Part shown: positions 34,225 to 63,925 of the stretch, piece after piece
Numbering within the stretch: position 1 is the first letter of the stretch
How the letters are laid out: each line of letters opens with the position of its first letter
Assembly: GCF_900090275.1 (NCBI RefSeq)
Contig: NZ_LT607755.1
Location: 3,472,001 to 3,536,000 of the forward strand
Direction of reading: 5' to 3'
DNA length: 64,000 bases
Source of the DNA: Micromonospora zamorensis
Lineage (GTDB): Bacteria > Actinomycetota > Actinomycetes > Mycobacteriales > Micromonosporaceae
The notes under the pieces: generated by a model
What the model saw: the letters and a program-made list of their open reading frames with translations, nothing else
Database searches by the model: none
Told to the model about the DNA's origin: nothing
Program-made: the position numbers and the translations under genes

Positions 34225-35499
34225 TCAGCGGATCGAGAGCGGACCGGTGGCGTCGGTGGATTCGCCCATTTCAAGGTTGCAGGCCAATGCCTGCTGTCGG
34301 CACTCCTCGACAAGATCCTGCTCCTCGTCCGACTGATCGAGGTCTCGGGCCAGCGCCGCGAACGCGTGATGCGCCTGCCGGAAGTCACCTGCGAGCATCA
34401 AGAGGTTCGCGAGATCCACTCGTAGCGCCACGATCTCGGTGGCGAGCCGCTCGCCACCTTGCGGCACCATGCGGAGGGCCCGCTCCAACATCTCGGCTGC
34501 CTGTACGAAACGCTCGTTCTCGGCGAGCTCCCTCGCCTGCGCCCGCAACTCCACCAGGTTCTGTGGGGATCTCTGCGGCGGAACCGGGACGGGGGCGGTG
34601 TGCGGGGCAGTGCTGGAGAACGTGTTGTCCGTTCGGGCGGCCACCAGCCCCGGAGAGTCGCCGTCGTCGAGGAAAGGCATCAGGAGCTGACGAACCTCAC
34701 CGGCCGATGCTGGTCTTTCCGCTGGGTCCTTGGCCAGCAGGCAGTAGATGAGGTGCGCCAGGTCATCGGGGACGTCCGATCGATATTCAGTGATGATGGG
34801 AATGGCCGCATTGATATGACGGCGCATCATGTCCGGGGCGTTTGCCGCCTCATATGGAGGGTTCCCACCAAGCATCTCGAAGAGGATGCAGCCCAAGGCG
34901 TACAGATCGGCAGAAGGCCCGACAGGGCCACCCTGGGCCTGCTCGGGTGCGATGTAGGCGGGGGTCCCGAGCGTCCGCCCGGTTGCGGTGAGGCGAGATG
35001 CCTCGGCCGGGCCGAGTAGCGCCGCCACACCGAAATCGAGCACCTTGACCACCCTCGACGGGGTGATCATGAGGTTCTGGGGCTTCAGGTCACGGTGTAC
35101 GAGGGAGGCGCCGTGGGCGGCCACGAGCACCGAACAGACCTGCGCGGCAATGGAAGCCGCCTCGCCGACAGGCAGTCGTTCCTGCTCGGCGATGTGGTCG
35201 GCGAGGACGATCCCCGGCACGAGCTGCATGACGAGGAAGAGGTCTTCACCGTGCACGCCCAGGTCGTGCACGGCCGGCACGCCAGGGTGGTCGAGCCTGG
35301 CGGTTGCTCTCGCCTCCCGCCGGAAGCGCTTGCCCGCCGTCTCACGCTCGTCCTCCGGCACCTCCAACTGCCGGAGAAACTTGATCGCCACCGGCCGGTC
35401 GAGTCGCTCGTCGAAGCCCGCCCAGACCTGACCCATTCCTCCGCGACCGACCGGATACGTCAACTCGTACCGATCACCGACACGATCCCCCGCCTGCAC
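34225..35499 (-). CDS. Soluble Ser/Thr protein kinase with TPR-like tail
   Basis: 424 residues. Kinase domain ~12-275: glycine loop GRGGMGQVWAGF, ATP-binding Lys in PVAIKFL, catalytic loop LVHRDLKPQNLM, DFG in VLDFGVAALL and PAYIAPEQAQ. No transmembrane segment or PASTA repeats, unlike PknB. After a Pro-rich linker, residues ~320-410 form helical pairs (ARELAENERFVQAAEMLERA, AGDFRQAHHAFAALARDL) resembling TPRs. It is the last gene of the leftward operon helicase-RelE/UvrD-kinase, 49 bases behind the UvrD-type gene. A signalling or effector role in defence, like PglW or Stk2-type kinases, is inferred from context only. Confidence 0.88.
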   Translation of the reverse strand: MQAGDRVGDRYELTYPVGRGGMGQVWAGFDERLDRPVAIKFLRQLEVPEDERETAGKRFRREARATARLDHPGVPAVHDLGVHGEDLFLVMQLVPGIVLADHIAEQERLPVGEAASIAAQVCSVLVAAHGASLVHRDLKPQNLMITPSRVVKVLDFGVAALLGPAEASRLTATGRTLGTPAYIAPEQAQGGPVGPSADLYALGCILFEMLGGNPPYEAANAPDMMRRHINAAIPIITEYRSDVPDDLAHLIYCLLAKDPAERPASAGEVRQLLMPFLDDGDSPGLVAARTDNTFSSTAPHTAPVPVPPQRSPQNLVELRAQARELAENERFVQAAEMLERALRMVPQGGERLATEIVALRVDLANLLMLAGDFRQAHHAFAALARDLDQSDEEQDLVEECRQQALACNLEMGESTDATGPLSIR

Positions 35500-35548
35500 C
35501 TACAGCCTCCCCGCATCAAACGCCGATCCCGCTGAGCAGGAGCGGCAA

Positions 35549-37732
35549 TCAGGCTAGCTGTCGCTGCACGAGCCGCCCGGTCAGGAACGGGCTGGGCGTG
35601 CCGTGCCAGAACACCGCAAGCTCGTCACGCGCACGGGTGGCGGCGACGAACAGCAACGACCGGTCACGCTGGCGTTCGCGCTGGTAGCGCTTCGGGTCGG
35701 TGTCCCGGTACCTGCTGATCATCTGCCGAGGCACCAGGCCGTCGCTGACCCCAGCGATGATCATGCGCTGATACTCGAGGCCCTTGAACCGGTGCATGGT
35801 GCCGATGTGCACGCCGTCAGGGCGCTTCGGGCCGTCCGGGCCGATCTCCACTACGTCCAGGCCATCAGCCTCCAGTCGGCTGATGACCTCCGCCGCCAGG
35901 TCCCTGGTCGGTACGCAGATGGCAACCGAGCCGTCCGTCGGACTGCCCCAACCGCGTAACTGCTCGACGATCAGATCCCGCTCCTGCGCCCACGTCGCGG
36001 CGCCACGGAACACGGGTCGGCCACCACGCAGCAGCGACCGGTAGCCGGCCAGGTCCTCCTCACCGCCGTCGAGGTCGTCGTACACCTCCCCCGTCATGAT
36101 CTGCAGCGCATCGGCGAGGATCTGCCGGGTCGTGCGGTAGCTCAGGGTGAGCCGGGACGACCGACCGCGAATGTTGACGCCGAGGCTGCTCAACGTGACG
36201 TGGTTGTCGTAGATGCGCTGGTGGGTGTCGCCGGTGAGGAACATGTCGTCCGGGCCTGGGGCGACCATGGCACGCAGCATTTTCCAGTGGGCGGCGCTGA
36301 GGTCCTGCGCCTCGTCGACCACCACGTGGCGGTAACGCGGCCGGTAGAACCCGCCGGACGACTCGCCTGCGACGCCAGTGTTCTGGGCTGTGCGGTCCAT
36401 TTCGAGGCGGGCAGCCCGTTGTGCCACCTGGCGCCAGGTCCAGACGCCGCGATTCTCCAGCCAGGTGGTGAAGCGTTCGGTCAACTGCCAGATCTGGTCT
36501 CGCTCGATCCGCGAGAGGCTGCGACCGCGGTTGGGGCGGCGGGCCTTGAAGTAGTCCGTCCGTGAGTTGAGCACCTGACCGAGGATCACCTGGGTCCACT
36601 CAGCGGCAAGGAACTCCGCCTCCCAGGCAGTCTCGCCGGTCTCGATGAGGAACTCGTCCCACAGCTCAAGGACCCGATTGTCGTCCACCACCCGGCGGCT
36701 GCCACCTGCCTTGGCTTCGGCCACTACCCTGCTGGCCAACCGGTCGATGTTGACGATGTCGACGCGCGACACCAACTCCTGCCCACCCAACGCCATGAGC
36801 CGAGTCCGCAGGTCGGCAGCCAGATTCCGGTTGAAGGTGGTGAGCAGGATCGGCTTGTCCGATCCGTCTGGCAACTGCCGGGCGAGGTGCGCCACGCGGT
36901 GCAGAGCGACGATCGTCTTGCCGGTACCCGGGCCACCACCGACCCGTGCCGGACCGTTGTAGCGGCGCTCGACCAGCTTGCGCTGAGTGGGGTGCAGGAA
37001 GATCTGCCACCGTTCGAAGGCTTCGCCGAGCATCGCCTGCAATGCCTCGTCGTCGGTGGTCACCTGCGTGGCGGGGCGTTCCACTGCCGCCTCGAAGTCC
37101 TCGGGGTCGACCGGCTCGTCGGCGCGGACCGGGTCCGTGACCTGTTGCAGCACGTCGTCGTAAGGGGTGCCGTCGAAGAGCGCGAAGAGCACGTCGGTGG
37201 TGAGCTGCGGCGCCCGGTCCAGCAGTTCCAGCAGCTCGGCCTCGGTGGTCAGTTCCCGGATCTGTGGTAGCAGCGGCTCGGACACACCGAGATCCAACAG
37301 CTGGGAGTCGGTGTACGTGTCGAAGAGCGGTTTCTGCGCTGGCTCCGGTTCCACATCCGGCGGCACCACCCGACCGATGATGCTGTCACCAACGGGCGCC
37401 ATGTCGACGACCTCGATGCCGCCGGTGATCCGGTTGATGCGGTACGCGTACCGGGAGAGGTCGTCGTACACCTCACCACGGTGCTTGACCGCGACGAGCA
37501 GGTAGTCGCGCTCGGAGATGTGCAGCAGCAGCGCGCGGTAGTCCTTGTTGACCCGGGCGGACATCAGCCGGGAGTCGCTGTTGAGCGCCTTCAGGTTGAG
37601 CCCCGGGTTCTCCGGGTTGTGCCGGAACTTGTGCATGAACTCGTAGACCGCTCCGATGTCGGCGCGGGTGAGCTTCATGACCTCCTTGTCAGCGCGGTCC
37701 AGCATCCGCAGTGTCGTTGCCCCGGTGCTCAT
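35549..37732 (-). CDS. UvrD-like SF1 helicase with N-terminal RelE/ParE-like domain
   Basis: 727 residues. Residues ~15-105 match the RelE/ParE toxin fold (ADIGAVYEFMHKFRHNPENP, GLNLKALN, ARVNKDYRALLLHI, LLVAVKHRGEVYDD). After a ~120-residue linker comes a UvrD-type helicase: Walker A GGGPGTGKTIVALH (~264), Walker B HVVVDEAQDLSAAHW (~474), TLSYRTTRQI, and motif VI region LLFVAATRARDELAVFW. Its ATG overlaps the stop of the 2141-residue helicase by ATGA, so the two are made in fixed proportion. RelE-like domains cleave mRNA on ribosomes; whether this one is active or a binding module is not known, as catalytic residues vary in the family. Confidence 0.88.
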   Translation of the reverse strand: MSTGATTLRMLDRADKEVMKLTRADIGAVYEFMHKFRHNPENPGLNLKALNSDSRLMSARVNKDYRALLLHISERDYLLVAVKHRGEVYDDLSRYAYRINRITGGIEVVDMAPVGDSIIGRVVPPDVEPEPAQKPLFDTYTDSQLLDLGVSEPLLPQIRELTTEAELLELLDRAPQLTTDVLFALFDGTPYDDVLQQVTDPVRADEPVDPEDFEAAVERPATQVTTDDEALQAMLGEAFERWQIFLHPTQRKLVERRYNGPARVGGGPGTGKTIVALHRVAHLARQLPDGSDKPILLTTFNRNLAADLRTRLMALGGQELVSRVDIVNIDRLASRVVAEAKAGGSRRVVDDNRVLELWDEFLIETGETAWEAEFLAAEWTQVILGQVLNSRTDYFKARRPNRGRSLSRIERDQIWQLTERFTTWLENRGVWTWRQVAQRAARLEMDRTAQNTGVAGESSGGFYRPRYRHVVVDEAQDLSAAHWKMLRAMVAPGPDDMFLTGDTHQRIYDNHVTLSSLGVNIRGRSSRLTLSYRTTRQILADALQIMTGEVYDDLDGGEEDLAGYRSLLRGGRPVFRGAATWAQERDLIVEQLRGWGSPTDGSVAICVPTRDLAAEVISRLEADGLDVVEIGPDGPKRPDGVHIGTMHRFKGLEYQRMIIAGVSDGLVPRQMISRYRDTDPKRYQRERQRDRSLLFVAATRARDELAVFWHGTPSPFLTGRLVQRQLA

Positions 37733-40700
37733 CGACGTTCTCCCCCGCTCGTCGCCTTGATCTCTGCGGCCAACTCGTCAACCGACCACTCCCGAGCGGT
37801 ACGGGCATGCCAGCCCGCTTCCGCGTACGCCCGGTCGCGATCTTCCGTCTCCGGGTCGTCGGACGGACCGGTGAGCACGATCGCGATCCGCCGGTCGGGC
37901 CAGGCCAACTCAGCCTGCCAGCCCTGGTCGCCCAACTCGTAGCCGACGACCGGTGCGGGCAGATCCTGCCGCGCGAGCTGTTGGACGAGCTGGTCCAGGG
38001 TGTTCTCGGCCGGGTCCAGGTAGCGCAGGACGTCCCGCCACGGCGACTCCGTGTCGAGTGTCTCGGGCTCGGCGACCGGCTGCGCCGAGACGCCAAGCCA
38101 CGTTGCCGTCTCCTCGTCAAGCGGCAAAGCGCGTTGAGCGAGCACGAGCCCGGTGCCCTCGGTGACCGCCATAGAGGCCGACTCGAAGGCATCAAGCGTG
38201 GACACGGCGAGCTGACCCGCGTCGCCGCCACCATTGCCGAGGAACTGGATGACGTTGCCCCAGGCAAGCCACGCGGCCCAGCGGTCCTTGTGGCCCTCGT
38301 CCGCCACTGCGGCGGGCAGATCGTCGATGACGGCGAGAGCTGACATCGTCGCCATCGGTTTGCTGCGCGCGTCGAGGACGATCGTCACCGGGCAGCCTGC
38401 GTTGTCCTGAGATCGGGCGACCATGATGTGCCGCGCGGTCGACGGGGGCAGAGAGCTTCCACGCAGAGCGGCGTTCAACCTTTCCGCGACGCCTACGGAG
38501 TCGGTGGTGCTGTTGTCCCGGGCCTGCTTGAGCATGCCCCATAGAGCGGCTTCCGCCCGCCGCTGCCAACGGTCGAGATCAGGATCGGCGAGGAAGCGCA
38601 TGAGCTGTTCGATCGGATTGACCCAGATCGTCTCCTCAAGCTCTGCGGGATCCGCGCCAGGAAGCATGCCGCGGAACTTGTCCCTGGCGGTCTGCTTGCT
38701 CAGTCCGCCGTACGGCATCCACCGCCCCTGCCCCTCCGCGCTCCCCCAGGTCTTGACGTCGTCCCAGGTGGCCGCGAAGACCAGGTAGCCGTGGGCGCGC
38801 AGTCGGGCACGCTTCTCGGCGTCGTCGGCGAGCCGGTTGTACTGGGATGAGGCGTGGTACTTGAACCCGTCCAGATAGACCGCCACCTCGGGTGAGGGGG
38901 CGTCGAGGCGCTTGAAGTGGACGTCGGGGCGGGTGCCCCGAACGGTGTTCTGCAGCTTCATCTGCCAGTGGGTGACGCTCTGGCCGTTGCCGCGGACGAA
39001 CCGAAGGTCGGCGATGCGCGCGCCGTCATGATCGGTGCGCCGGTCGATCCGCAGGCCCGAGTTGGGTGTCTCGCCAAGCGCCAGCAACTTGGTGAGGAAA
39101 CGCATCTCCAACTCGCTCTCGACCTGGTGGATCAGCGAGATCTCGTCCGTGCGGGTGCCCTCCTGGACGTCCCAACTGTCGAGGAGCTTGTCCAGCATGC
39201 CCAACGCCTCGTCACGGCTCATCAGGGCGAAGTGCTCGTTGCGCGCGTGACGGAGGAGACAGCGGTGACACACCGCCCTGCCTTCGTTTCGGCAGACGCA
39301 GTCGGCAATTCGCTGCCGCGCGAGTTCCAGGACTGCGCGGAACTCCTCCGGTTTGGCGAGGCGGTGCAGATAGCCGGTGCCCTGCGGCTGAGTGTCGTAG
39401 ACGACCACGAAGTTCCGTGTTCCGTCGCTCTGCCCATCCGGCATGGTGGCCGACACGGCTTGAAGGTGCGCCGGGTCGCCCCCGTACTGCGCGGCGATGC
39501 CGAGGCGGATAGCCGCGGCGAACGACGCGATGCGCTCCTGCACGACGGCGGTCGCAGCGGGGATAAGGATGCGCAGCGCCTCGGTTTCCAGCTCGTGGGC
39601 GAGGATGAGATCGACGTGGGTGTCTGCAGCGGCAGCCGAGCGCCGGTGCGGGCACCAGGGCCGGTGGTGCTCGGCGCCCTTCACGACGGTCGACCCGGAG
39701 GCCTCTGCGGCGAGTTGTTGGCCTACTGCGGGGACGCCATCAACAGTGGTCCCGCCGCATGCGGTGCAGGTGTGGAACCGATTGATCCGCACCTCTTCGC
39801 CCGCGAAGAGTTCAGCCGCCCGGTCGTAGCGCTGCGCTCCAAGGTTGAAGTGCCGGATCATCGCGTGCCGGCTGTAGTCGACACCGAACGTGTCATGAGC
39901 GTGCCGCCAGGACGAATCAACCTTGGCCGGATCCACGTCGACGGCGACGGTGGTGGCGTAGAACCGTCGGTCCCGGTCGTCGCTGTCGTCACGGATGCGG
40001 GCGTCGTCGCGCTTGTCGCGGCTCAGCACCCGGGTCGGCTGGAGCACCTGGAACAGTCGTCCGTGATCGGCGATGCCCGGGTCCGCGCATCGCGGGCAGG
40101 CGCTGGTGTCCTCCTTGGCAAGGTGGGTGCGGACGTAGCCACATTGCGCGCAGATCCGCCACTGCTCGTACGCCGGCCGGTCCGCCGGACCGACGTCGAG
40201 CCCGGAGATCTCGTGTTTGTAGCCCCGCACGTAGTAGCTGTTGCCGGGTGCGATCTCGACCAACGCCTGGCGGGCGGGACGTGCGTACTCACGAAGTTCG
40301 CTGTGGAACCGACGGTCGCCGTCAGTCTTGTCCTCCCAGGTCAGGGTGGCTTCCAGGTCGGTCCGGCTGTCGATGAGCGCATAGTTGGGCAGCAGACCGA
40401 ACTCGACCAGGGTGCCGTGGGCGGCAGCCGCGCTGACCTCTCGCAGGCGGCGGCGGACCGCCCCCTCCTCGGCCTTCAACATCTTGATCTCGCGGGCGTG
40501 GTCCGGGTCGCTGGGCACCAACGTGCCCCGGGCGGTGGCAAGCTCCTGCATCCGGCGACGCAGGTCGGCCAACCGGAATTCCCAGATTTCGTCGGCTTCT
40601 TTGACCCGGTGGACGATGCCATCCACCGCGAACTCACGGAGTTGGTCGGCGGCGGCCCGGAGGACCTTGTCGCCGAAGAGGGCCAGGAATTCCTCCACCA

Positions 40701-43700
40701 GCCGGCCACCGTCGCGTCGACCAGCTTCGGCGAGGCCCGTCAGCCAACCCGTCGGGCCGAACAGCACGTGCGCCCGTCGTGGCATCGGCAGCACTCCGGC
40801 GAGGCGGCCGCGGGCGGCCAGGTCGATCAGGTGGGCCAGGTACTGGCGGCGCAGGATCTCCACGGCGGAGAGAAAGCAGCCGGGCGGGACGATCTGGCCG
40901 GCGATCATGTCGCGGGGATCGGTGAGGTAGTAGCGATCCCGCTCGGTTCGTCCCACGAGGGTCAGCACGAGCGCGTTGCCGCTCTTGCGGCCGGCGCGGC
41001 CCGCCCGCTGGACGTAGTTGGCCGGACCGTGCGGGAGCGAGGCGAGCACAACCGCGGAGAGGGCGCCGATGTCGATGCCCATCTCCAGCGTGGGCGTGCA
41101 GGAGAGCACGTTGGGGTCGGTGTAGCGCTCGCCTTCGCGGAACTGCTTCTCCACCGTCTCCCGCTGGGCGCGGGTGAGCATGCCGGTGTGTTCGCCGGTG
41201 ACCACCCGGAACACCGGGCTGTCCAGGTAGAGCCGCCGGTAGTAGTCGTCGGCTGCGGTGTCGTCGTGGGCGGCTTGGAGTTGGCCGCGGCAGCGGTACT
41301 GCCGGCACGGCTGGCCGATCCAGTCGGCCACCCGGTCGGGGTGCTCGGTCTGCTGCCAGTGGCAGGTGTCGCAGCCCACTCCGGCAGTCACGGCGGAAGC
41401 GTCGTCGAGTCGGGTCACCCGCAGGTGGCCGGGCATCAGCCCGTACACCTTGTTGCCGTCCTCGGTGTCGCCAACGGCGACCACGCCGTCTGCGGCGAGG
41501 GCCGGCAGCAGCTGGCTGAGGAAGCCGGCAGCGTCACCGGAGTCGAGGCCAAGGCAGCGCGACGTCCAGTCCTGATACCAGTTGCCGCGCGCGGTGATCA
41601 CGTCGAACTCCGAGCGGGACTTCGGCGTGGCGAGCAGGAACGCGGGCGCGGACAGACCCTTCGGGAAAGCGGGCATCCCGGCGGGCCGGCCGCCCCAGAT
41701 CTGCCATCGGGTGCCGCCGCGCTTCAGGTACGGCACCAGCCACTCGTGGAACACCGCACCCCGGGTCCGTAGCCGTTCCAGCAGACCGCGGAGGAAGGCG
41801 AGGTAGCGGGCGTCGTCCGGCGCCATTCCGGCCAGGTGACCGGGGCCGGTGAGGTGGACGTCCCGGCAGATCGCGGCGGCCCGCGCCGGATCATCGAGGG
41901 CAACCTCGACGGCGACACTGCGGGTCAACTCCAGGGTGCGGCCCTGCCGGGAACGCAGCCCGGTCTCCATCACGGTCGCGAAGACGAGCCGCTCACTGAT
42001 CAGCTCCCACGTTTCCCGGCTGCCGCTGTGCTCACCGGCAAGCAGGCTGTCGACACCGGGCTGATCGTGCAGGTCTGGCGGCACCACGGTGGAGAGGATC
42101 TCCGGCTGCGCCGCTGCCTCGACCATCTTGGCGAACAGGTCGTCCAACCCGACCGACTTTCCCGACTCCAGCCGGCTGGCGAGCAGGGAACGCAGCGAGA
42201 ACGAGTAGGACCGGTTCGCGACGAAACCAGCCCGATGCGCGGCATCCTGCACCGAGTCGTTGAAGAGCAGCGTCTTCTTCTCGGCCTCATCAAGTTCCCC
42301 ACCGGTGAAGAGTTGCGTGATCGCCACCGAGGCGAGGGTGGCCAGGCCGGCACCGAGGAAGCGGATGCCGTGGTCCAACTCGCAGGACGGGCACCGGTCC
42401 TTCTCGGCGCCGTCGATGTCGAGAACGTCGCCGAGCACGACGACGGCGTCGTCGGTGGGCTCCCGGTCCCGCTGTTCATCGAAGGGGCGCACCCGACGGC
42501 CGTACTCCAGGACCAGCAGGCCACGGGAGCGCTGGCGTACCTCGTCCTCGGTCGCGGAGATCAGCGCGCGGACCCGGCGCTTGTCCCGACCGACGCTGGC
42601 GCGGTAGATCTTGTCCGGGTCGGTCTCCAGCTCCTGCGGGTCCTTCTCCGGCGACAACGCCATCCAGCCCGAGCGACCGCAGTGCCGGCAGTAGATGGCC
42701 GGCAACCGTGGGTAGCGGTTGTCGGCCACAACCACGTCCGCATCTGTGGCGTACGGATCCAGCTCGCGCGGCGCTTCGCCGTACCAACCGAAGGCGGCCT
42801 GGTGGGAGGTGCCGCGCAGCAGGCGGGAGACGGCGCGTACCCACAGGTGGGTTTCAATGTTCAGCAGGGGGCGGCCGGGAGCCTCCGGGTTCTGCGCCAC
42901 GGAGAGCAGGGCGACGAACCGGGCGAGAGCCTTCGCCGTGATCTCGGGCGGGGTCTTCATCACGCTGCCCCAGCCAGTGGCGTTCTTCCGGGGCAGCACG
43001 TCGATGATCTCGTCGAGGGTGCACGGCCGCGCCTGGAGCGAGTCGAGCACCGCCTTCGTCAACGGATGCTGGCGCAGCAGTTCGCCGAGGCGGGTCGGGT
43101 TGTCGAGGCAGCGCTCGCCGAGGACCAGCTCGGCAACCTCGGCCATCATCGCCTCGGGGTCACGGTCGTCGACGGCCGCAAGCTGCTCGGGGGTGGGCAG
43201 TGGCAGGCTGAAGTCCTGGCGGGCGATGAACTCGCCGGCCTCGTAGCGGTCCTCCCCCACCAGCGAGCCAGCGTCGAAGGCGACGCCGAAGACCTGCTCG
43301 GCGACCTCACGGATCGCGGTACGACCGTCCCGCCCGCCGCCCTCACCGAGCGTCGCGGAGGTCGCCACCGGGCAGATCGGCCCGAGCGGCCGCTCCGGCT
43401 CATCGAGGTCGAGCGCGGCGGCGAGCCGCCGCAGCAGCATCGCCACGTCGGTGCCCTGCGCGCCGTCGTAGGTGTGGAACTCGTCCAGCACCACGTACGC
43501 CGGCTCGGCGCCCTCCCAGAGCGGCAGGTCGTCGGCGCGCTGGAGCAGCAGGTCCAACATCTTGTAGTTGGTGATCAGGATGTCCGGCGGGGTGCGACGC
43601 ATCTCCGACCGCTTGGTGAAGACATGCGCGTACTCGATGGCCGCAACGTCACCGATGTAGAGACCAGCAGTGACCTGGCTGAGCGCCGGGTCGGAGAGCA

Positions 43701-44154
43701 ACTCGTTGATGCGAGACGTCTGGTCCGTCGCGAGGGCGTTCATCGGGTAGAGCAGGATCGCCTTGACTCCGGCCCTGCCCTGCTGCTTCTGCCGCCGGCA
43801 GTGGTCGAGCACCGGGATCAGGAACGACTCCGTCTTACCCGAGCCGGTGCCGGTGGTGATCAGGGTCGGCTGGGCGGCCCTGCCCTTCGTCGACAATCGG
43901 GCGAATGCGTTCGCCTGATGCAGGTAAGGGGTGAAGCCGGCCGGCGCCCAGTCCAGGTTCGCCCGCCAGTCCCCCTCCGCCGGGCGGAAGGGGGTGCGGA
44001 TCCGCAGGTAAGGGCCGCGGAAGATACCCTGCTCCGGGTGGGAGAGAAAACCCTCCAAACCATGACGTACGCCGTCCTCGGTCAACCCGAAGGTGGTGGT
44101 CAGGTACTGGGTGAGGGTTCGGCGCAGGGTGTCGGCGGCGAGGGTAGGCCTCAT
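37729..44154 (-). CDS. Giant DEAD/DEAH helicase with DUF1998 zinc domain and C-terminal Vsr-like nuclease domains (MrfA/DruE-like)
   Basis: 2141 residues. Walker A TLITTGTGSGKTESFL (Lys107), DEFH box VLDEFHTYDGAQGTD (~225), SAT motif PVATSATLG, motif VI QRAGRAGRKSG (~1050). The zinc-rich part has CAQCGYVR...CPRC (~1340-1360), CTACGG...CPHR (~1455) and VCRNEGRAVCHRCLLRHA (~1620), the DUF1998 arrangement of MrfA and Druantia DruE. A Vsr/DUF559-like fold follows at ~1740-1800 (RPDVHFKR, VAVYLDGFKYH, DDAEKRARLRAHGYLVFAA). A second degenerate copy ends the protein (AELAWPDRRIAIVLTGP, EDRDRAYAEAGWHAR). Length fits DruE (~1800-2100), but no DruH/A-D partner is nearby. First gene of a leftward operon; probably translocates on invading DNA (inference). 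Confidence 0.88.
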   Translation of the reverse strand: MRPTLAADTLRRTLTQYLTTTFGLTEDGVRHGLEGFLSHPEQGIFRGPYLRIRTPFRPAEGDWRANLDWAPAGFTPYLHQANAFARLSTKGRAAQPTLITTGTGSGKTESFLIPVLDHCRRQKQQGRAGVKAILLYPMNALATDQTSRINELLSDPALSQVTAGLYIGDVAAIEYAHVFTKRSEMRRTPPDILITNYKMLDLLLQRADDLPLWEGAEPAYVVLDEFHTYDGAQGTDVAMLLRRLAAALDLDEPERPLGPICPVATSATLGEGGGRDGRTAIREVAEQVFGVAFDAGSLVGEDRYEAGEFIARQDFSLPLPTPEQLAAVDDRDPEAMMAEVAELVLGERCLDNPTRLGELLRQHPLTKAVLDSLQARPCTLDEIIDVLPRKNATGWGSVMKTPPEITAKALARFVALLSVAQNPEAPGRPLLNIETHLWVRAVSRLLRGTSHQAAFGWYGEAPRELDPYATDADVVVADNRYPRLPAIYCRHCGRSGWMALSPEKDPQELETDPDKIYRASVGRDKRRVRALISATEDEVRQRSRGLLVLEYGRRVRPFDEQRDREPTDDAVVVLGDVLDIDGAEKDRCPSCELDHGIRFLGAGLATLASVAITQLFTGGELDEAEKKTLLFNDSVQDAAHRAGFVANRSYSFSLRSLLASRLESGKSVGLDDLFAKMVEAAAQPEILSTVVPPDLHDQPGVDSLLAGEHSGSRETWELISERLVFATVMETGLRSRQGRTLELTRSVAVEVALDDPARAAAICRDVHLTGPGHLAGMAPDDARYLAFLRGLLERLRTRGAVFHEWLVPYLKRGGTRWQIWGGRPAGMPAFPKGLSAPAFLLATPKSRSEFDVITARGNWYQDWTSRCLGLDSGDAAGFLSQLLPALAADGVVAVGDTEDGNKVYGLMPGHLRVTRLDDASAVTAGVGCDTCHWQQTEHPDRVADWIGQPCRQYRCRGQLQAAHDDTAADDYYRRLYLDSPVFRVVTGEHTGMLTRAQRETVEKQFREGERYTDPNVLSCTPTLEMGIDIGALSAVVLASLPHGPANYVQRAGRAGRKSGNALVLTLVGRTERDRYYLTDPRDMIAGQIVPPGCFLSAVEILRRQYLAHLIDLAARGRLAGVLPMPRRAHVLFGPTGWLTGLAEAGRRDGGRLVEEFLALFGDKVLRAAADQLREFAVDGIVHRVKEADEIWEFRLADLRRRMQELATARGTLVPSDPDHAREIKMLKAEEGAVRRRLREVSAAAAHGTLVEFGLLPNYALIDSRTDLEATLTWEDKTDGDRRFHSELREYARPARQALVEIAPGNSYYVRGYKHEISGLDVGPADRPAYEQWRICAQCGYVRTHLAKEDTSACPRCADPGIADHGRLFQVLQPTRVLSRDKRDDARIRDDSDDRDRRFYATTVAVDVDPAKVDSSWRHAHDTFGVDYSRHAMIRHFNLGAQRYDRAAELFAGEEVRINRFHTCTACGGTTVDGVPAVGQQLAAEASGSTVVKGAEHHRPWCPHRRSAAAADTHVDLILAHELETEALRILIPAATAVVQERIASFAAAIRLGIAAQYGGDPAHLQAVSATMPDGQSDGTRNFVVVYDTQPQGTGYLHRLAKPEEFRAVLELARQRIADCVCRNEGRAVCHRCLLRHARNEHFALMSRDEALGMLDKLLDSWDVQEGTRTDEISLIHQVESELEMRFLTKLLALGETPNSGLRIDRRTDHDGARIADLRFVRGNGQSVTHWQMKLQNTVRGTRPDVHFKRLDAPSPEVAVYLDGFKYHASSQYNRLADDAEKRARLRAHGYLVFAATWDDVKTWGSAEGQGRWMPYGGLSKQTARDKFRGMLPGADPAELEETIWVNPIEQLMRFLADPDLDRWQRRAEAALWGMLKQARDNSTTDSVGVAERLNAALRGSSLPPSTARHIMVARSQDNAGCPVTIVLDARSKPMATMSALAVIDDLPAAVADEGHKDRWAAWLAWGNVIQFLGNGGGDAGQLAVSTLDAFESASMAVTEGTGLVLAQRALPLDEETATWLGVSAQPVAEPETLDTESPWRDVLRYLDPAENTLDQLVQQLARQDLPAPVVGYELGDQGWQAELAWPDRRIAIVLTGPSDDPETEDRDRAYAEAGWHARTAREWSVDELAAEIKATSGGERR

Positions 44155-44237
44155 GAACGGATCACCGCCGCATGCTACTTCACCCCTTACCGGGGTTGAC
44201 CTGCCCGACAGCCCGCCACGGCAGTGAGTCGGATTCG

Positions 44238-44269
44238 CGACACCGGTCGGTGTCGATCACCGCCTAGGC
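44238..44269. promoter_or_regulatory. Perfect 18-bp palindrome and leaderless promoter in the divergent defence promoter region
   Basis: CGACACCGGTCGGTGTCG at 44238-44255 is a perfect inverted repeat. It is followed by TAGGCT (44264-44269), which ends 9 bases before the ATG at 44279. It lies in the 124 bases between the divergent helicase operon (start 44154) and the RAMA-CBS-HEPN gene (start 44279). Position and symmetry make it a strong operator candidate; the protein that binds it is unknown. Confidence 0.6.
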
Positions 44270-44278
44270 TGCGCATCC

Positions 44279-45667
44279 ATGCCCCCCAACCCGCCCCGGA
44301 CGCGCCGCGAGGTCCTGCTCAACGGACGCCGGGTCCGCATCTCCGACCTCAAAAACGCTGGTCTGTTGGACGAGGGCGCGGTTCTGTACTACCGCCAGTA
44401 CATAGGTTCGATGCCACATCAGGCGACAGTCACGGCGCGAGGGCGGCTGCGCTTGGCCGACGGGCGGGAGTTCGACACGCCCTCGGGAGCGGCCGCCGCC
44501 GTCGCCGACGTAACCGCCGTACCAGGTTGGGAGGTTTGGCGTGTCGGACCAAACGGCCCTCTCCTGGGGGAACTCCGCCTTCGGCTCATCAAGAGTGTCG
44601 CTGCTGAGGTGACGGACCGCCAGGAACCGCAGGCGGAAGCGGTGGGACGACGCATGACAGCCTTGGAGAACGCCAGGCAGGCCGCCGAAACAGGCACACC
44701 AACAGCGATGACCGTTCGTGAGCTCATCGGACTGTGGGGCGTCGAGGACCGGGACAGCGAGGCAGCCCCCCAGATCACGACGGACCTGGCGAACTTCGGC
44801 TTGACCACGGTGCCGGACTTCAACGCTGTCGACCTTGACCAGACAGTGCGAGTCCTCCGGTTCGGCATGGCGCAGCCGCCACCCGCAGACGGCACGAGCG
44901 ATGGGCCTGAGGAGACGACGAGCGAGGTGGATGAGGAGCCGGGTAGCGCTATCGGTCTGACGCTTGGAAATCTCCTGCCAAGCCGAACCCGCCTGATATC
45001 GGTAACGCCGACCTCTACCTTCGACGAGGCCATCACCGCCATGGAGTTGGACGACTTCTCCCAACTGCCGGTCCTGGCAAACCCTCACAAGATCCATGGC
45101 GTCGTATCATGGAAAACCATCACCAAGGCCAGGGCGCAAAACCCTGAGGCCACGTTCAGCGACGCGATCGATCCCGATGTCCAGGTGTTCGACTACGACC
45201 GCCGCCTGATCGACGTACTCCACGTACTGCTGGAATACGAGTTCATCTTCGTGAAGGACCATGAGCGGAAAATCGCTGGCATCATCACCGCCGCCGATGT
45301 CGTTCAGACCTACCACCAGACCGCGACACCGTTCATCCTTATCGGCGAGATCGACCGGGAGCTGCATCAGCTGATCCTCAGCACCTTCGATGAGACCACT
45401 ATCCGGGAAGCATGCATCCGTGCAGGGCTGACCTTCCGCTCTGTCGACAAGATGACGATGTCCCACTACCAGGCGGTGCTTGGCGATGAGAGCTGCTGGA
45501 ACGGCCTCGGCTGGAGGTTGGAGCGTAGGCGCCTCGTGAATCGCCTCAGTGAGATCCGCGAGATACGTAACCGGGTCATGCACTTCAGCAAGGACGCCGT
45601 CAGGGACGGAGACGTCAACATGATCCAGAACTTCCTGAGGACGATCCGCAGGCACAACGGGTCATGA
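44279..45667 (+). CDS. RAMA-CBS-HEPN-like domain protein
   Basis: 462 residues. Residues ~1-105 match the RAMA module (restriction-methylase-associated; VRISDLKNAGLLDEGAVLYY, GRLRLADGREFDTPSGAAAA, PGWEVWRVG). Residues ~235-355 form a CBS pair (TPTSTFDEAITAMELDDFSQ, HKIHGVVSWKTITKA, KIAGIITAADVV), the usual adenine-nucleotide sensor. The C-terminal ~100 residues are helical and end in EIREIRNRVMHFSKD, an R-x4-H motif typical of HEPN ribonucleases. A nucleotide-sensing RNase effector is a fair inference, but activity is untested. It shares a promoter region with the helicase operon and is coupled by ATGA to the next gene. Confidence 0.75.
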   Translation: MPPNPPRTRREVLLNGRRVRISDLKNAGLLDEGAVLYYRQYIGSMPHQATVTARGRLRLADGREFDTPSGAAAAVADVTAVPGWEVWRVGPNGPLLGELRLRLIKSVAAEVTDRQEPQAEAVGRRMTALENARQAAETGTPTAMTVRELIGLWGVEDRDSEAAPQITTDLANFGLTTVPDFNAVDLDQTVRVLRFGMAQPPPADGTSDGPEETTSEVDEEPGSAIGLTLGNLLPSRTRLISVTPTSTFDEAITAMELDDFSQLPVLANPHKIHGVVSWKTITKARAQNPEATFSDAIDPDVQVFDYDRRLIDVLHVLLEYEFIFVKDHERKIAGIITAADVVQTYHQTATPFILIGEIDRELHQLILSTFDETTIREACIRAGLTFRSVDKMTMSHYQAVLGDESCWNGLGWRLERRRLVNRLSEIREIRNRVMHFSKDAVRDGDVNMIQNFLRTIRRHNGS

Positions 45668-46661
45668 CACACGATTTTCAGCTCAACGGACGGCAGTACC
45701 AAATCGACGCCGATACGGTCCGAGCGCGGCTGCGTGGCCGAGTCCAGGAAGACGTCCGAAATCACTGGGTCGACGTCGACGGGGTCCGGTGGCCCGTCAA
45801 GCACGCCTTCGAGGCAGCGACTGCACTTCCCCGCAACGAGTTCACCTCGCACATTGCACTACGCCACCTACGCGCGTTGGGTTTCGCGACCAGCCCGCTG
45901 CACTTCGAATGCCACCCCGGAGAGCAGCGGCCGCCTTCTCCTACCCGCGCCCCGAGTGAGCCGCCGGCAGGGCCCATCGTTGCCGGTGACGAGCACCTGC
46001 TGGCGGATGCCTTCTCAACTTTACTGACGTTCATTAGCGCCGGTGACCTCACCTCGCGGATCTCCGCACTGGAAGCCGACCTGAACGGCGTCGATCGGGA
46101 TGCTGCCGCCGCCGTGGCGGCAGCATCAGAGCTGGGATTCGACGTACTGCACGCTGCCTTGCAGGTTCGGAAGCACGCCGGCCGGCTCAGTGACGTCATC
46201 CACGCGGCCGTGATCACTCAAGTCCTCCCGCTGATCCTTGACGACGGCGAGCGGGTGCTCCGTAGACCGTCGCTGGCTGCTGGCAACGACCCGGGCCGAT
46301 TGTTCGACTTGGAGACGGACCGTCGCGTCGCCGAGTTCAAGATGGCGGTGTGGAAAGGCCGGGACACCATGCGTAAGCGCGGCGTCTTCGCCGATCTTGT
46401 GCATCTCGCCCTTGCTGGGCCACCGCGCAAGGCCCAACTCTTCGTATCCGGTCCCTTGCCCATCAGGTACCTCCAAACAAGCAATGGGTCTGCCGCCTGG
46501 GCGCTCGGACGCTCCGCGCCCAACCTGCGTCGGCGCGCTTCGACGAGAAGTTCGGCTCGGCAGAGATGACGGTCCGCGACTTCACCGCCGGGCCAGCCAA
46601 GCACGTCGAACTGATCGACCTGACAGAGCTGCTGCCCACAATCGCCCCGGCAATCACGTGA
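45664..46661 (+). pseudogene. PD-(D/E)XK nuclease-like protein with a single-base frameshift
   Basis: Read in frame from 45664, coding quality is good to about residue 280: an N-terminal domain (NHWVDVDGVRWPVKHAFEAA, ALPRNEFTSHIALRHLRALG) and a nuclease-like core FDLETDRRVAEFKMAVWKG, where E-x-K follows an Asp, as in PD-(D/E)XK enzymes. After about 46520 the frame turns to Arg/Ser-rich residues and stops at 46569. The +2 frame then continues as FDEKFGSAEMTVRDFTAGP and HVELIDLTELLPTIAP to the stop at 46661. The full span is 3n+2 bases, consistent with one lost base. The gene starts inside the stop of the RAMA-CBS-HEPN gene. Either a recent inactivating deletion or an assembly error. Confidence 0.7.
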
Positions 46662-46966: not shown

Positions 46967-47434
46967 TCACCAGTCGCGGGCCCAGTCTGGCGGCGGCACG
47001 ACCGCGAGTTGCGGTTCACCGCTGATCGGTTCGAGAGCATGCACGACCCGCAGGTCCCCGTCGGCCGCAGCGTCCTCGTCGGTGATGACCCTCCCACTGC
47101 TGCCATCAATGCTGACCAGAAGCCACCGGTCGGGGTGGATGCTGCCATCGTCGACCAGCGCCCGCACTCCGAAGGTTCGGGCCAAGGTGGCGGCCAGCTC
47201 CCGCTCCCCCTGCCCGGTGGCGTCGGCGAGTTCGGCGTCACCGGTCAGAATCCAGCCGAAACCCTCGCCCTCGTCTGGAGGATTGAGCATCGCGACCGGC
47301 CGAGGGCCATCGACTGCTCGGTCCTCGGTCCTCCCCACGTAGACCGCGTCCGGCGGGATGCCGAAGTCCTCGCTCAGGCATCGGCGCAAGGCGTCTGAGG
47401 GCAACTCGCTCTCGAAGCGGATCTGATAGCGCAA
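46967..47434 (-). CDS. Small acidic protein of unknown function
   Basis: 155 residues beginning MRYQIRFESELPSDALRR, rich in Asp and Gly (DEGEGFGWILTGDAELADAT, HPDRWLLVSIDGSSGR). No known domain. The acidic, soluble, single-domain character fits an immunity or inhibitor protein in a conflict region, but that is only a guess. It stands alone on the minus strand between gene debris and the NB-ARC module. Confidence 0.6.
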   Translation of the reverse strand: MRYQIRFESELPSDALRRCLSEDFGIPPDAVYVGRTEDRAVDGPRPVAMLNPPDEGEGFGWILTGDAELADATGQGERELAATLARTFGVRALVDDGSIHPDRWLLVSIDGSSGRVITDEDAAADGDLRVVHALEPISGEPQLAVVPPPDWARDW

Positions 47435-48172: not shown

Positions 48173-48445
48173 GTGAGCGGACAGCGTTGGGAAGCGGACC
48201 CTACCGCCGAGCTCACGCGCCGATGGGGCAAGTCCTCCCACGAGCTGGGCAACACCTCCGGCGACGGCAGCTGCCCCGACGTCTGGGAGTTGAGCAACGG
48301 CGACATCGCGGTGATCGGGCAGGACCTCACTGAGACGTATCAGGAACGACTCCCAGCCGGTGTCTCCGTGGATCCGGGCGAGCGGCTTATCATCATTCCC
48401 CGATCGACAATGATCGCGGCGAAGGTGGATATACCTGATGCATGA
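48173..48445 (+). CDS. Small protein of an actinobacterial conflict-associated family
   Basis: 90 residues from a GTG with GGAGGTCGCC ahead of it. The central part (GDGSCPDVWELSNGDIAVIG then QDLTETYQERL) is the typical C-P-D/S-V/L-x-E-L-x-D/N-G-D-x-x-V-I-G small domain that precedes DUF6879 genes in actinobacteria; no activity is known. It overlaps the DUF6879 gene by 8 bases, so the two are coupled. Confidence 0.65.
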   Translation: MSGQRWEADPTAELTRRWGKSSHELGNTSGDGSCPDVWELSNGDIAVIGQDLTETYQERLPAGVSVDPGERLIIIPRSTMIAAKVDIPDA

Positions 48446-49049
48446 CCTGTTCCGCGGGGATCCTGGCGAGCAACTTCGCCTGGCGGACTACTGGGCGGAC
48501 TTTGAGGATCGGTTCTGGCAGACCGGCGATCCGGGCTTCTGGAAGCTGGAACGCCAGCAGACCTTCAAGGAGCCCGGCGACGAGGGTTGGCAGGCGTTTG
48601 CCGACGGGCGGTGGGAGGATTCGCTGCGAATCCTCGACGCGCGCCGCCCCGAATTTCAGAGCTACTACCGGCGGATCGCCGACAGCGGGTTCGCCACCCG
48701 ACGGGTACGGGTCGTCGAAGAGCCCCTTACGCCTTACCTTCAATGGGAGCTGCACGTGCTGCGACTGCGGCACGAGTACGGCGGTCTGACCCATGTGGTC
48801 GGCGCGGACGCGGTGGCGGCAGCCGAGTCGGGTGGACCGGTTCCGGAGATCTACACCCTCGGCGCCGAGGTGATGTATGAGGCCATCTACGACGCCGACG
48901 GTGTGCTGGCGTCCGCCCGCCGCTGGCGTGACCCCGACTTGGTGGCAAGCTGCCAATCCTTCATCGAGTCGCTCTACCAGGGCGGTGAGCCGCTCGACGA
49001 GTTCTTCACCCGGGTGGTGGCGCCGTTGGGACTTCCCCGCGCGGGGTGA
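48438..49049 (+). CDS. DUF6879 family protein
   Basis: 203 residues. Typical DUF6879 features: F-W-x-L-E-x2-Q-x-F at DPGFWKLERQQTFKEP, a DARRPEFQSYYRRIADS segment, TRRVRVVEEPLTPYLQWELH, and an acidic strand near VPEIYTLGAEVMYEAIYDAD. The family is uncharacterised but recurs beside STAND ATPases and HTH/DUF397 genes. It overlaps the small upstream gene and ends 3 bases before the NB-ARC gene, so the three form one operon. It may be the effector or target-recognition part (inference). Confidence 0.8.
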   Translation: MHDLFRGDPGEQLRLADYWADFEDRFWQTGDPGFWKLERQQTFKEPGDEGWQAFADGRWEDSLRILDARRPEFQSYYRRIADSGFATRRVRVVEEPLTPYLQWELHVLRLRHEYGGLTHVVGADAVAAAESGGPVPEIYTLGAEVMYEAIYDADGVLASARRWRDPDLVASCQSFIESLYQGGEPLDEFFTRVVAPLGLPRAG

Positions 49050-49052
49050 GAG

Positions 49053-51452
49053 ATGGAAGGCGCCGGGTCGGACGGAGCCGGGCAGCGGCCCGCTCAGGTG
49101 AACCGGTCCGCGCTGTCCGGACCGGCGGATCTGGTCCAGGCCCGCGACGTCTACGGCGGTGTGCACTTCCACGGCGGGGCCGCTTCCCAGGAGCGACCGC
49201 AACAACTCCCCGGTGACGTCCGCGGTTTCGTCAACAGGGTGGAGGAGCTACAAACGCTCAACCGGCTGCTGACCGACGGGGAAGAGAGCGTCAATGTCAG
49301 CCTGTCGGTGATCACCGGGACGGCCGGCGTCGGTAAGACCTCAGTCGCCCTGCGCTGGGCGCACAGCATTCGGAGCAGGTTTCCCGACGGGCAGCTCTAC
49401 GCCAACCTGCGTGGTTACGATCCGGGCCAACCGGCGCAGCCGGATCAGATCCTCGACCGCTTCCTGCGGGCCCTTGGCGTTCCACCTTCGGCGGTGCCGG
49501 CAGATCTGGATGAACGGGCCGCGCTGTACCGCTCTCGACTGGCCGGCCGGCGCGTACTGGTGGTGTTGGACAACGCCGCAACCGCGCGTCAGGTGCGCCC
49601 ACTGCTGCCTGGCACGGATCACTGCCTGGTCGTTGTCACGAGTCGGAACATGCTCTCCGGGCTGGCCACCCGCGACGGCGGTCGACGGCTGACGCTGCGC
49701 ATGTTGACCGAGGACGACGCCGTCACCCTGCTGCGCGGCATCACCTCGCCCTACCGCAGCGGCGACGACCCCGCCGAGCTGGGCGAGCTGGCTCGACTCT
49801 GCGCTCGGCTGCCCCTCGCACTGCGCATCGCCGCCGAACGGGCGGCGAGCCGGCCATTCATGCCCCTCGGCGAGCTGATTGAGGATTTACGAGACGAGTC
49901 GGCCCTGTGGGACGCACTCACCGCCGAGGAAGACGAGGAGTCCGACGCGGTACGTGCGGTGTTTGCCTGGTCCTACCGCGCCCTGAACCCGACGGCCGCC
50001 CGACTGTTTCGACTTCTCGGGCTGCACCCTGGCCCCGACCTCAGTGCCCCGGCCGCCGCGGCGCTGACCGGCATGGCGGTGTCCCGGGTACGGCAGCCGC
50101 TCGACGCTCTGGTCAGCGCTCACCTGTTGGAGCAGAGCGCTCCGGGGCGCTACCAACTCCATGACCTGCTGCGCGCCTACGCGGTCGACCAGGTCCGGCA
50201 CCTGGAGAGCGCAGAGGATCGGCAGGCGGCACTGCGCCGTGGGCTGGACTGGTATCTGCACACCGCCGACGCCGCGCTGGCCCGTACTCTGCCCTTCTAC
50301 CGGACCGTACCGTTGGATCCGCCGACCGACGTCACGCCGCTCGCCTTCGCGACCAACGCCGAGGCGGACGCCTGGTTCGACGCCGAACGGGACAACCTGG
50401 TCTCCGCCACACGAGTTGCGGCCGATGCCGGCCTACCGCGGACCGCCTGGCATCTGGCGGTGCTGCTCCGCAGCGTCTCCATGCATCAGAACGCCTTCGA
50501 GAGTTGGTTCGCCACGGCCCGGATCGGCCTGGCAGCGGCCCGCACGCTCGGCGACCGGCGCGGCGAGGCGGAGGCACTGGAAAGCCTCGGCAAGGCCCAC
50601 TTCCAAGCCCGCCAGCTCACCGAGGCCGCCGAACACCATCAGGCCGCACTGGTCATCCGGCGGGAGATCGGCGACGAGTACGGCACAGCAGTGTCGATCA
50701 ACGCGCTCGGGTTGCTGGGTCTGCGTAGTCGTCGTCTCACCGACTCACTGACCCGCTTCGGCGAGAGTCTGGCGATCTTCGAGCGGCTCGGCAACCGGCG
50801 GTGGCAGGCCCTGCTGCTGAGCAACCTCGCCGAGACTCGCTACGAGCTGGGTGAGCTGACCGAGGCGGCGGTCCTGCTGGATCGAGCACTCGTGGTGCAG
50901 CGGGAGATCGACGACCGGGGGCAGGAGGGAAATTCGCTCTTCTTCCTGAGCATGGCCCTGCGGGAACTCGGCCGCACCGACGAGGCGCGCGCCGCGATCG
51001 AGTCGGCCATCGCCATCGCCGAGGGCGCGAGCCAGCTGTGGCTGGGGCACTGGCTGGTGGAGTACGCGCGGGTGCTGCGCGCTTCCGGGCGGCCCGCCGA
51101 GGCGCTGGAGGCCGTGCACCGGGCGGCCACAATTCAGCGCGAGCTCGGGGACCGCAGCCGCGAGGCGATGGCCCTCGATGGCGCCGGTGAGGCGTACCGG
51201 GAAGTGGGGCAGGCGGACGAGGCGATCGCCTTCCACCTCCGCGCGGCGGCGGTCCACCGGCAGCTCGGGGACGATTGGCAACTCGCCCTGACGCTGGACC
51301 ACCTGGCCGCTGCGCTGACGGCGGCGGGCCGCCCAGAGGAAGCCGGACAGCACTGGAGGGAGGCTCACTCCCTGCTGGCCGGGTTCGACGACGGACGTGC
51401 TGCCGCGCTTCAGGAAGGCATCGCGGCGGCGCTATCGAACAGCGCGGAGTGA
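49053..51452 (+). CDS. NB-ARC (STAND) ATPase with TPR repeats
   Basis: 799 residues. After a short N-terminal segment with LVQARDVYGGVHFHGG (~30-45) comes an NB-ARC domain: Walker A ITGTAGVGKTSVALRW, Walker B VLVVLDNAATARQV, CLVVVTSRNMLSG, and the GLPL-equivalent LCARLPLALRIAAERA. A winged-helix region follows (ALNPTAARLFRLLGLHPG). From ~440 to the end about eight TPR units are recognisable (EALESLGKAHFQARQLTEAA, ALLLSNLAETRYELGELTEA, ALTLDHLAAALTAAGRPEEA). It resembles AfsR without the SARP DNA-binding part. Such proteins typically sense a ligand through repeats and then assemble; here that probably works with the DUF6879 and VQARD-motif proteins (inference). Confidence 0.88.
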   Translation: MEGAGSDGAGQRPAQVNRSALSGPADLVQARDVYGGVHFHGGAASQERPQQLPGDVRGFVNRVEELQTLNRLLTDGEESVNVSLSVITGTAGVGKTSVALRWAHSIRSRFPDGQLYANLRGYDPGQPAQPDQILDRFLRALGVPPSAVPADLDERAALYRSRLAGRRVLVVLDNAATARQVRPLLPGTDHCLVVVTSRNMLSGLATRDGGRRLTLRMLTEDDAVTLLRGITSPYRSGDDPAELGELARLCARLPLALRIAAERAASRPFMPLGELIEDLRDESALWDALTAEEDEESDAVRAVFAWSYRALNPTAARLFRLLGLHPGPDLSAPAAAALTGMAVSRVRQPLDALVSAHLLEQSAPGRYQLHDLLRAYAVDQVRHLESAEDRQAALRRGLDWYLHTADAALARTLPFYRTVPLDPPTDVTPLAFATNAEADAWFDAERDNLVSATRVAADAGLPRTAWHLAVLLRSVSMHQNAFESWFATARIGLAAARTLGDRRGEAEALESLGKAHFQARQLTEAAEHHQAALVIRREIGDEYGTAVSINALGLLGLRSRRLTDSLTRFGESLAIFERLGNRRWQALLLSNLAETRYELGELTEAAVLLDRALVVQREIDDRGQEGNSLFFLSMALRELGRTDEARAAIESAIAIAEGASQLWLGHWLVEYARVLRASGRPAEALEAVHRAATIQRELGDRSREAMALDGAGEAYREVGQADEAIAFHLRAAAVHRQLGDDWQLALTLDHLAAALTAAGRPEEAGQHWREAHSLLAGFDDGRAAALQEGIAAALSNSAE

Positions 51453-51559
51453 GAGCCCTGCACTGCGGGCCCATCGGCCTACATGGCCCCCGATGAGGTG
51501 CAGGGCGCTGCCCCGTTAGGTCCATAGACACTCCTGGTCCACGCTGGCAGGGTCCGATC

Positions 51560-58215: not shown

Positions 58216-58405
58216 CGACCTGCTCGGTGCCCAGTGGCGGAAGAGCACCCGCAGCGGCGACAACAACGGCAACTGCCTGGAGGTCGCCGATAACCTGCCC
58301 GGCCTCGTTCTAGTACGCGACAGCAAGGACCCGGCCGGAGAGGCTCTTGCATTCTCACCCGCCGCCTGGATTAGCTTCGTCCGGTTCGCCCAGTCCAAGC
58401 ATTGA
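58208..58405 (+). CDS. DUF397 protein
   Basis: 65 residues that fit the family exactly: QWRKSTRSGDNNGNCLEVAD, LVLVRDSKDPAGEALAFSPA, AWISFVRF. It overlaps the XRE-DUF5753 gene by 8 bases, the standard partner arrangement. Confidence 0.92.
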   Translation: MADDLLGAQWRKSTRSGDNNGNCLEVADNLPGLVLVRDSKDPAGEALAFSPAAWISFVRFAQSKH

Positions 58406-63845: not shown

Positions 63846-63925
63846 GCCGGCACTCCGCTACGCTCCGTGCCGCCCTGAGGCACCATCGCACTCAGCCTGA
63901 TGATTCGCTCGCTACGCTCGCTCAT
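63842..63925 (-). CDS. 27-codon bridging mini-ORF with ATGA overlaps at both ends
   Basis: Read on the minus strand from 63925: MSERSERIIRLSAMVPQGG then TERSGVPA and stop. The ATG overlaps the stop of the upstream partial gene (ATGA), and the stop overlaps the methyltransferase ATG (ATGA). The DNA contains the near-palindromic CGCTCGCTACGCTCGCTC stretch, which resembles a repetitive element. It is either a translated spacer that passes ribosomes to the methyltransferase or a repeat inserted between two coupled genes. No function is known. Confidence 0.45.
   Translation of the reverse strand: MSERSERIIRLSAMVPQGGTERSGVPA

Follow-up and report, generated by a model that had tools for sequence, protein, structure and literature searches.

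This work describes a defense locus of Micromonospora zamorensis that lies in a 64,000-nucleotide stretch (positions 3,472,001 to 3,536,000 of a one-contig, 7.1-Mb genome; referred to here as the window). In this locus, a giant helicase gene, a UvrD helicase gene, and a kinase gene are read leftwards, and a gene for a protein with RAMA, CBS, and HEPN domains is read rightwards together with its partner gene, P2. We regard the locus as a probable ARMADA Type II system of actinobacteria whose two halves are parted by an internal cargo slot, with RAMA-P2 being one module embedded in that slot rather than an ARMADA subunit. Since the RAMA-P2 pair lies in exchangeable cargo between the ARMADA halves, the locus would comprise two defense modules and not the single five-gene system that an earlier reading of the bare sequence (the original prediction) had proposed. 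The five genes exist as that prediction described them, and its assignment of the locus to defense was borne out. The single system was not supported: the helicase and UvrD genes travel with armB (16/16 genomes) and not with RAMA (3/16).

ARMADA Type II genes in and beyond the window

ARMADA Type II is described in the 2025 preprint of Bell et al. (PMC12458937) as having a strict gene order, with ArmA being BrxHII-like, ArmB PglX-like, ArmC YprA-like with a C-terminal Vsr nuclease, and ArmD GajB-like with a RelE-like N terminus. For the ARMADA of Escherichia coli NCTC 12900, the same source reports that all four genes were needed for defense and that infected cells remained viable. In M. zamorensis, four homologous gene types (for a BrxHII-like helicase, a PglX-like methyltransferase, a YprA-like helicase with a putative Vsr-type end, and a RelE-GajB-like UvrD helicase) occur in the same order and orientation as published, and the leftward helicase and UvrD genes are assigned on this basis to armC and armD. 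The A-B-C-D order on one strand is kept in a looser sense, as 14.8 kb of cargo parts armB from armC; the locus also differs from the published system in having kinases at both ends. The whole-locus order is second kinase, armA, armB, slot, armC, armD, and TPR-kinase (coordinates are those of the window unless noted):

L109:10737-11798 (-), outside the window: second Ser/Thr kinase, directly upstream of armA
63922-64000 (-): 3' end of armA, a BrxHII/DrmD-like SNF2 helicase gene (933 amino acids) that continues past the window to ~66723 (L109:7922-10723)
58932-63845 (-): armB, DrmMI/PglX-like Eco57I-type DNA methyltransferase, 1,637 amino acids (Pfam Eco57I; PADLOC IIG/DrmMI)
44155-44178 (-): promoter-like motif GTAGCATGC...GGTGA directly upstream of armC, noted for the conservation of GTAGCAT in split loci
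37729-44154 (-): armC, DruE/YprA-like DEAD helicase with MZB/DUF1998 and C-terminal Vsr-like PD-(D/E)XK motifs (~residues 1680 to 1800)
35549-37732 (-): armD, UvrD/GajB-like helicase with a RelE-like N-terminal domain as described for ArmD (Pfam UvrD; PADLOC GajB, 91 bits)
34225-35499 (-): Ser/Thr protein kinase with a C-terminal TPR-like region, directly after armD (Pfam Pkinase, 158 bits)

ArmA matches PADLOC DrmD (284 bits) and BrxHII (183 bits) and shares 90% identity with its counterparts in two fused operons. ArmB matches Pfam Eco57I and PADLOC DrmMI/IIG, gives a weak PADLOC PglX match, and contains GNPPW. ArmC matches Pfam DEAD, Helicase_C, and MZB as well as PADLOC DruE models (up to 320 bits), and ArmD is recognized by its UvrD/GajB matches and its adjacency to armC. 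For the RelE-UvrD fusion named in the original prediction, UvrD is upheld by Pfam and GajB, and the RelE part had no Pfam match. The Vsr-type residues E1683, D1744, D1762, H1767, and K1781 are invariant in 16/16 aligned ArmC sequences, the window's included, and we read them as the probable catalytic residues. None of the four arm genes is truncated in this strain, and the Walker, DExH, and NPPW motifs are in place as read by eye. Compared with the relative G153, ArmB is 94 to 98% identical over residues 1 to 900 and 48 to 63% identical over residues 1051 to 1637, which suggests an exchange of the target-recognition part.

Three other systems were considered. Druantia shares a DruE-like helicase (armC) and was rejected for the left half, no Druantia partner such as DruH being among the PADLOC matches listed for the four genes beside armC (25 matches each for the kinase and UvrD genes). 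DISARM resembles the locus in its DrmD-like (ArmA) and DrmMI-like (ArmB) partners; it was rejected because the DEAD helicase and DUF1998, which DISARM has as separate DrmA and DrmB, are on one protein here and no PLD nuclease DrmC was among the matches listed for the proteins scanned. Mokosh was rejected for the left half on Pfam, PADLOC, and NCBIfam-type profile matches. The statement in the original prediction that no named system has this composition fails for the left half, which we assign to armC-armD of ARMADA Type II with armB and armA upstream. The original prediction also overlooked the remainder of the helicase operon, at 58932-63845 and just beyond the window.

Homologues of armC were searched for across 160 family genomes (the family sample), with two candidates scored per genome, so that extra armC copies may be missed; 20-kb maps were drawn around 20 homologues, some of them cut by contig ends. 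The UvrD gene adjoins armC in all 20 mapped loci. Directly upstream of armC, 9 of the 20 maps (L090, L091, L095, L097, L100, L101, L102, L107, and L108) contain two further genes of ~820 to 940 and 1,630 to 1,830 amino acids. Homologues of both are present in this strain: the 1,637-amino-acid gene, 14.8 kb upstream of armC on the same strand, and the 933-amino-acid gene just beyond the window edge. At E ≤ 1e-30, armB was detected in 36/160 genomes, and it is present in all 16 genomes with a near full-length armC of at least 60% identity (7 fused, 5 split on one contig, and 4 broken by contig ends). G113, with a 76-residue armC remnant containing a stop near RAMA and no armB, was left out of the armC set. 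The named relatives of the window belong to Micromonospora, the closest armC homologues being those of M. lupini Lupac 08 (98%) and M. orduensis (96%).

Homologues of the TPR-kinase adjoin armD in 11/20 armC loci of the family sample and lie downstream on the same strand in 13/17 named Micromonosporaceae loci, and a homologue of the second kinase stands upstream of armA in all 10 fused named loci. The word "kinase" occurs 0 times in the main text of PMC12458937, and the sections of the CapK/CapS paper covered here contained nothing pertinent to these kinases. Behind the kinase of L100 (G140), L101 (G143), and L134 stands a second armD-like gene with the same orientation, giving these loci two copies of armD.

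The armB-armC slot and its cargo

In a base-by-base comparison, armB ends here at the same codon as in its relatives, and the sequence diverges exactly where six relatives enter armC through an ATGA overlap. The interval between armB and armC is 14,780 bases; besides the features listed below, it includes AAA_28 and a gene without known function. On this alignment, RAMA-CBS-HEPN and P2 sit in what we take to be exchangeable cargo at the armB/armC junction.

44238-44255 (no strand): inverted repeat of two 8-bp arms with a 2-nucleotide center, CGACACCG-GT-CGGTGTCG
44279-45667 (+): RAMA-CBS-HEPN protein (RAMA-DS11), slot cargo, RAMA-fused DS-11 relative
45664-46569 (+): P2, partner of the RAMA protein, with a weakly ScoMcrA-like N-terminal region and then a probable PD-(D/E)XK domain
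46967-47434 (-): x23, a 155-amino-acid gene without known function, common to the slots of G178, G295, and G221
48438-52183 (+): further cargo, namely DUF6879, an NB-ARC-TPR protein, and DUF6308
53111-53890 (-): DDE transposase within the slot
57334-58405 (+): XRE-type helix-turn-helix regulator and DUF397 pair, on the armB side of the slot

Among 33 named armC loci, armB is directly upstream in 10 (gaps of -1 to 199 bases) and not in 23, of which 10 are from Streptomyces and two (L121 and L145) have ≤1.1 kb of upstream sequence. A second set of 160 Micromonospora genomes (the genus sample) gave 33 with armB at E ≤ 1e-200; identity to the window's armB is 68% or more in 26 of them. Three of the 26 are fused to armC (G236, G150, and G127) and 16 are split, comprising 15 on the same contig within 20 kb (4.7 to 15.9 kb apart) and G238, where ~36 kb intervenes (its armC position was taken through L130); of the rest, 5 end at contig edges and 2 have no armC within ~19 kb. 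Named loci and G genomes overlap (L131/G207, L132/G221, L136/G265, L141/G233, L127/G078, and L133/G092, among others), so the two counts are not independent.

On an ArmC tree (43 sequences, residues 1 to 1000), the fused and split states need six changes, five of them forced by well-supported branches (some placements in the tree rest on long branches), and a single origin of the split state was rejected on this count. Insertion at a tRNA was likewise rejected, since neither the window nor L109 or L110 contains one, as was a target-site duplication, the longest exact repeat between the two 500-base slot ends being 10 bases.

Irrespective of the cargo, the sequence GTAGCAT occurs 24 to 25 bases before the armC start in 22/22 split Micromonosporaceae entries; L126 and L130, which are also split, have it as well. 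It is found in 0/7 fused entries and not in the fused L134. We infer that this upstream motif is a promoter. Common control from a shared divergent promoter, as the original prediction had it, is not upheld; the region is an insertion junction carrying an armC motif that is also kept with other cargo. The accompanying "perfect 18-bp palindrome" at 44238-44255 proved to be two 8-bp arms around a GT center, which is not self-complementary. Arms of this length were present in 29/2,000 simulated sequences of equal dinucleotide make-up, and in G153, G144, and G147, the three relatives that resemble the window at this site, no more than a single arm survives, and that in part. On both grounds, a conserved operator was rejected.

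Slot cargo in relatives was labeled by best BLAST matches to a 21-protein set, with gene calls in the fetched loci made by a simple script that leaves small genes uncertain. With the entire interval in view, RAMA-DS11 is present in the window's locus, G178, G265, G233, and G078; it also lies beside armC in G221 and G092, where armB is on another contig. GmrSD-type genes are present, likewise with the entire interval in view, in G207 (weak, 24% identity), G260, G259, G272, G209, G284, G147, and G048; G274, whose armC was not seen, has a further example, and in G153 a fragment adjoins armC. Across 19 complete Micromonosporaceae slots, RAMA is in 5, GmrSD in 8, and both in 0. HEC-01AB was found with armB in view in G078 and in Streptomyces L148 and L152, and upstream of armC without armB in view in G092, L142, and L147. 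Other cargo includes Eleos LeoA/LeoBC (G184), a type IIG enzyme after armB (G221), an OLD/GajA-like protein (G209), and genes that do not look defensive (e.g., G238, G271, and G144). NB-ARC/DUF6879 homologues recur in G184, G295, G260, G209, and G147 and beside armC in G092. Of 21 non-fused Micromonospora loci in which 2 kb or more beyond armB could be viewed, 20 (all but G144) have a homologue of the XRE regulator near the armB 3' end; outside the genus, G020 has one, and G078 and G048 gave no match.

RAMA-DS11 and its partner P2

The RAMA-CBS-HEPN protein is classed, from its domains and profile match, as a RAMA-fused relative of the one-gene system DS-11 (DefensePredictor; PMC13092281). Like DS-11, it has a CBS pair fused to a HEPN domain with the conserved R-N-x3-H motif; it differs in its extra N-terminal RAMA domain and in having P2 as a partner in some loci. 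Its DS-11 match of 248.1 bits (residues 147 to 454) is below the NCBIfam NF053863 cut-off of 260, and the protein is therefore filed as a relative and not as a member. In a fold search with the HEPN part, the CBS pair took nearly all of the matches listed.

RAMA-DS11 is recurrent but not obligate slot cargo. In the genus sample, 5/8 full-length RAMA genes lie in the armB-armC slot (one of the 5 inferred), and in the family sample, RAMA is between armB and armC in 3/16 genomes having both (one, G092, inferred across a contig break). The co-occurrence that the original prediction proposed as its check is thus partial: RAMA recurs beside ARMADA, but most ARMADA loci are without RAMA, and RAMA is often located elsewhere. 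P2 directly follows RAMA in 4/4 Micromonospora genomes with P2 and was found beside 4/8 full-length RAMA copies of the genus sample; among 19 full-length RAMA places in the family sample, the window's copy alone has it. The P2 N-terminal region weakly resembles the ScoMcrA N terminus, and a predicted PD-(D/E)XK domain follows. A profile sequence search of P2 against solved structures gave no match at E ≤ 1, and Foldseek gave none at E ≤ 0.001. Past residue 292 the window's P2 no longer matches its family; a 331-amino-acid protein, P0104, is otherwise identical to it.

Several variants of RAMA-DS11 (P0018, P0023, P0029, P0032, P0033, P0039, and P0046) are 640 to 765 amino acids long, with ~180 to 300 extra N-terminal residues that in P0023 appear RNase H-like by eye. 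Other DS-11-like genes lie beside or near ARMADA as well. In L102 (G062), a DS-11 relative (29% identity over residues 117 to 457, the RAMA part being unmatched) is divergent to a kinase upstream of armA. In the distant ARMADA loci L105 (G145) and L106 (G151), DS-11-like proteins (20 to 23% identity) are encoded ~4 to 5 kb downstream of armD; the gene next to them is HerA-like in L106.

Mechanism, alternatives, and significance

If the locus is a split ARMADA Type II with an embedded RAMA-P2 module, ARMADA would block phage without killing the cell, by analogy with the published E. coli system. ArmB, by family, would methylate host DNA, and the ArmA, ArmC, and ArmD motors, together with the predicted Vsr-type nuclease of ArmC, would act on phage DNA. 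After the split, armC-armD may be read from their own promoter, so that the system would tolerate 4.7 to ~36 kb of foreign genes in its middle. In the embedded module, RAMA may dock on DNA and the CBS pair may bind an adenine nucleotide, thereby releasing the HEPN RNase as a cell-level back-up of the kind proposed for DS-11. P2 probably contributes a DNA-binding nuclease, and the RAMA-P2 module would work on its own.

Defense genes embedded in methylation-based systems are already known. TgvAB is embedded inside a Vibrio cholerae type I restriction-modification operon (PMC11411939), HEC-05/06 genes are embedded in Hma clusters (Payne et al., via PMC11411939 and PADLOC names), and auxiliary effectors are reported inside BREX loci (PMC12839542). 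The likeness lies in a self-contained, often modification-dependent gene within the operon of a methylation-based system, with HEC and GmrSD families recurring here. The present case differs in that the host would be ARMADA Type II, the insert, in which RAMA-CBS-HEPN can occur, spans 4.7 to ~36 kb, and the downstream half is preceded by a conserved motif that marks it.

Several observations weigh against the split-ARMADA interpretation. The split form bends the strict Type II gene order described in PMC12458937, and the armC motif is not in Streptomyces split loci, whose upstream sequence differs. RAMA-DS11 scores under the NCBI DS11 cut-off (248 versus 260 bits), and the window's P2 leaves its family after residue 292, near the C terminus. 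Finally, that RAMA recurs in the slot is compatible with a functional link to ARMADA.

Such a link would take the form of coupling, in which RAMA reads the ArmB adenine mark or its loss, the CBS pair senses S-adenosylmethionine or another adenine compound, and phage attack on methylation triggers the RNase. We consider this unlikely. Of seven family genomes with full-length RAMA and armC of at least 60% identity, three have RAMA in the interval, and it is elsewhere in G140, G143, G077 (fused), and G048 (split). A partial RAMA-protein match (39%) in G184 is 2 Mb from its armB, and RAMA-DS11 occurs in G219 without an armB match and in G169 and G003 with distant armB matches only. In addition, Yang et al. 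did not confirm that the MPND RAMA domain prefers N6-methyladenine, and CBS pairs bind many adenine ligands. A broader and speculative proposal, likewise unlikely, is that Micromonosporaceae ARMADA Type II has a dedicated plug-in bay between the writer ArmB and the executioners ArmC-ArmD, framed by the XRE/DUF397 pair on one side and by a promoter of armC's own. Back-ups that are candidate readers of DNA modification, either RAMA-CBS-HEPN or GmrSD and thus far never the two together, would be swapped there, and the RAMA-CBS-HEPN form would be wired to the ArmB methylation state and fire when a phage disables the mark.

It is very improbable that the split ARMADA is a decaying remnant, its operon broken by transposition and its halves persisting without function. 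The insert does contain a transposase, armC is interrupted in G286, and armB has an internal stop in G209 and G199. However, the four arm genes are full-length here with motifs in place, armC residues 1 to 1000 are >95% identical in six other non-fused loci, and the motif before armC persists whichever cargo is present. An obligate five-gene system under a shared divergent promoter is likewise very improbable. In its favor are the adjacency of the genes, the divergent promoter region, and two further loci, of M. orduensis and G178, where RAMA adjoins armC. Against it, armC-armD are fused to armB or have other cargo in most relatives (which refutes it as obligate and leaves at most a host-specific dependence), P2 is beside RAMA in 1/19 family places and 4/8 genus copies, and the relatives compared have not kept the inverted repeat.

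With the split ARMADA Type II reading, a tempting five-gene "new system" is corrected to two known kinds of module. ARMADA Type II, described with a strict order, often carries cargo between its halves in Micromonospora, and a search that insists on adjacency would overlook these loci or divide them wrongly. Candidate defense genes can readily be drawn from the slot, and RAMA-DS11 lets one ask whether embedded back-up effectors guard the surrounding methylation system. No mention of an armB-armC insertion was noticed in the Results and Discussion of PMC12458937. As far as the literature searched goes, the split ARMADA Type II, the conserved armC motif, and the RAMA-DS11 cargo appear to be new relative to that paper.

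Beside the ARMADA half, the window also encodes a giant DUF4011/AAA_11/AAA_12/MTES_1575 protein (25765-31746, -; PADLOC PDC-S37, 875 bits). L125 (G147) and M. orduensis L132 likewise have a homologue of it, located downstream of their armD and TPR-kinase genes.

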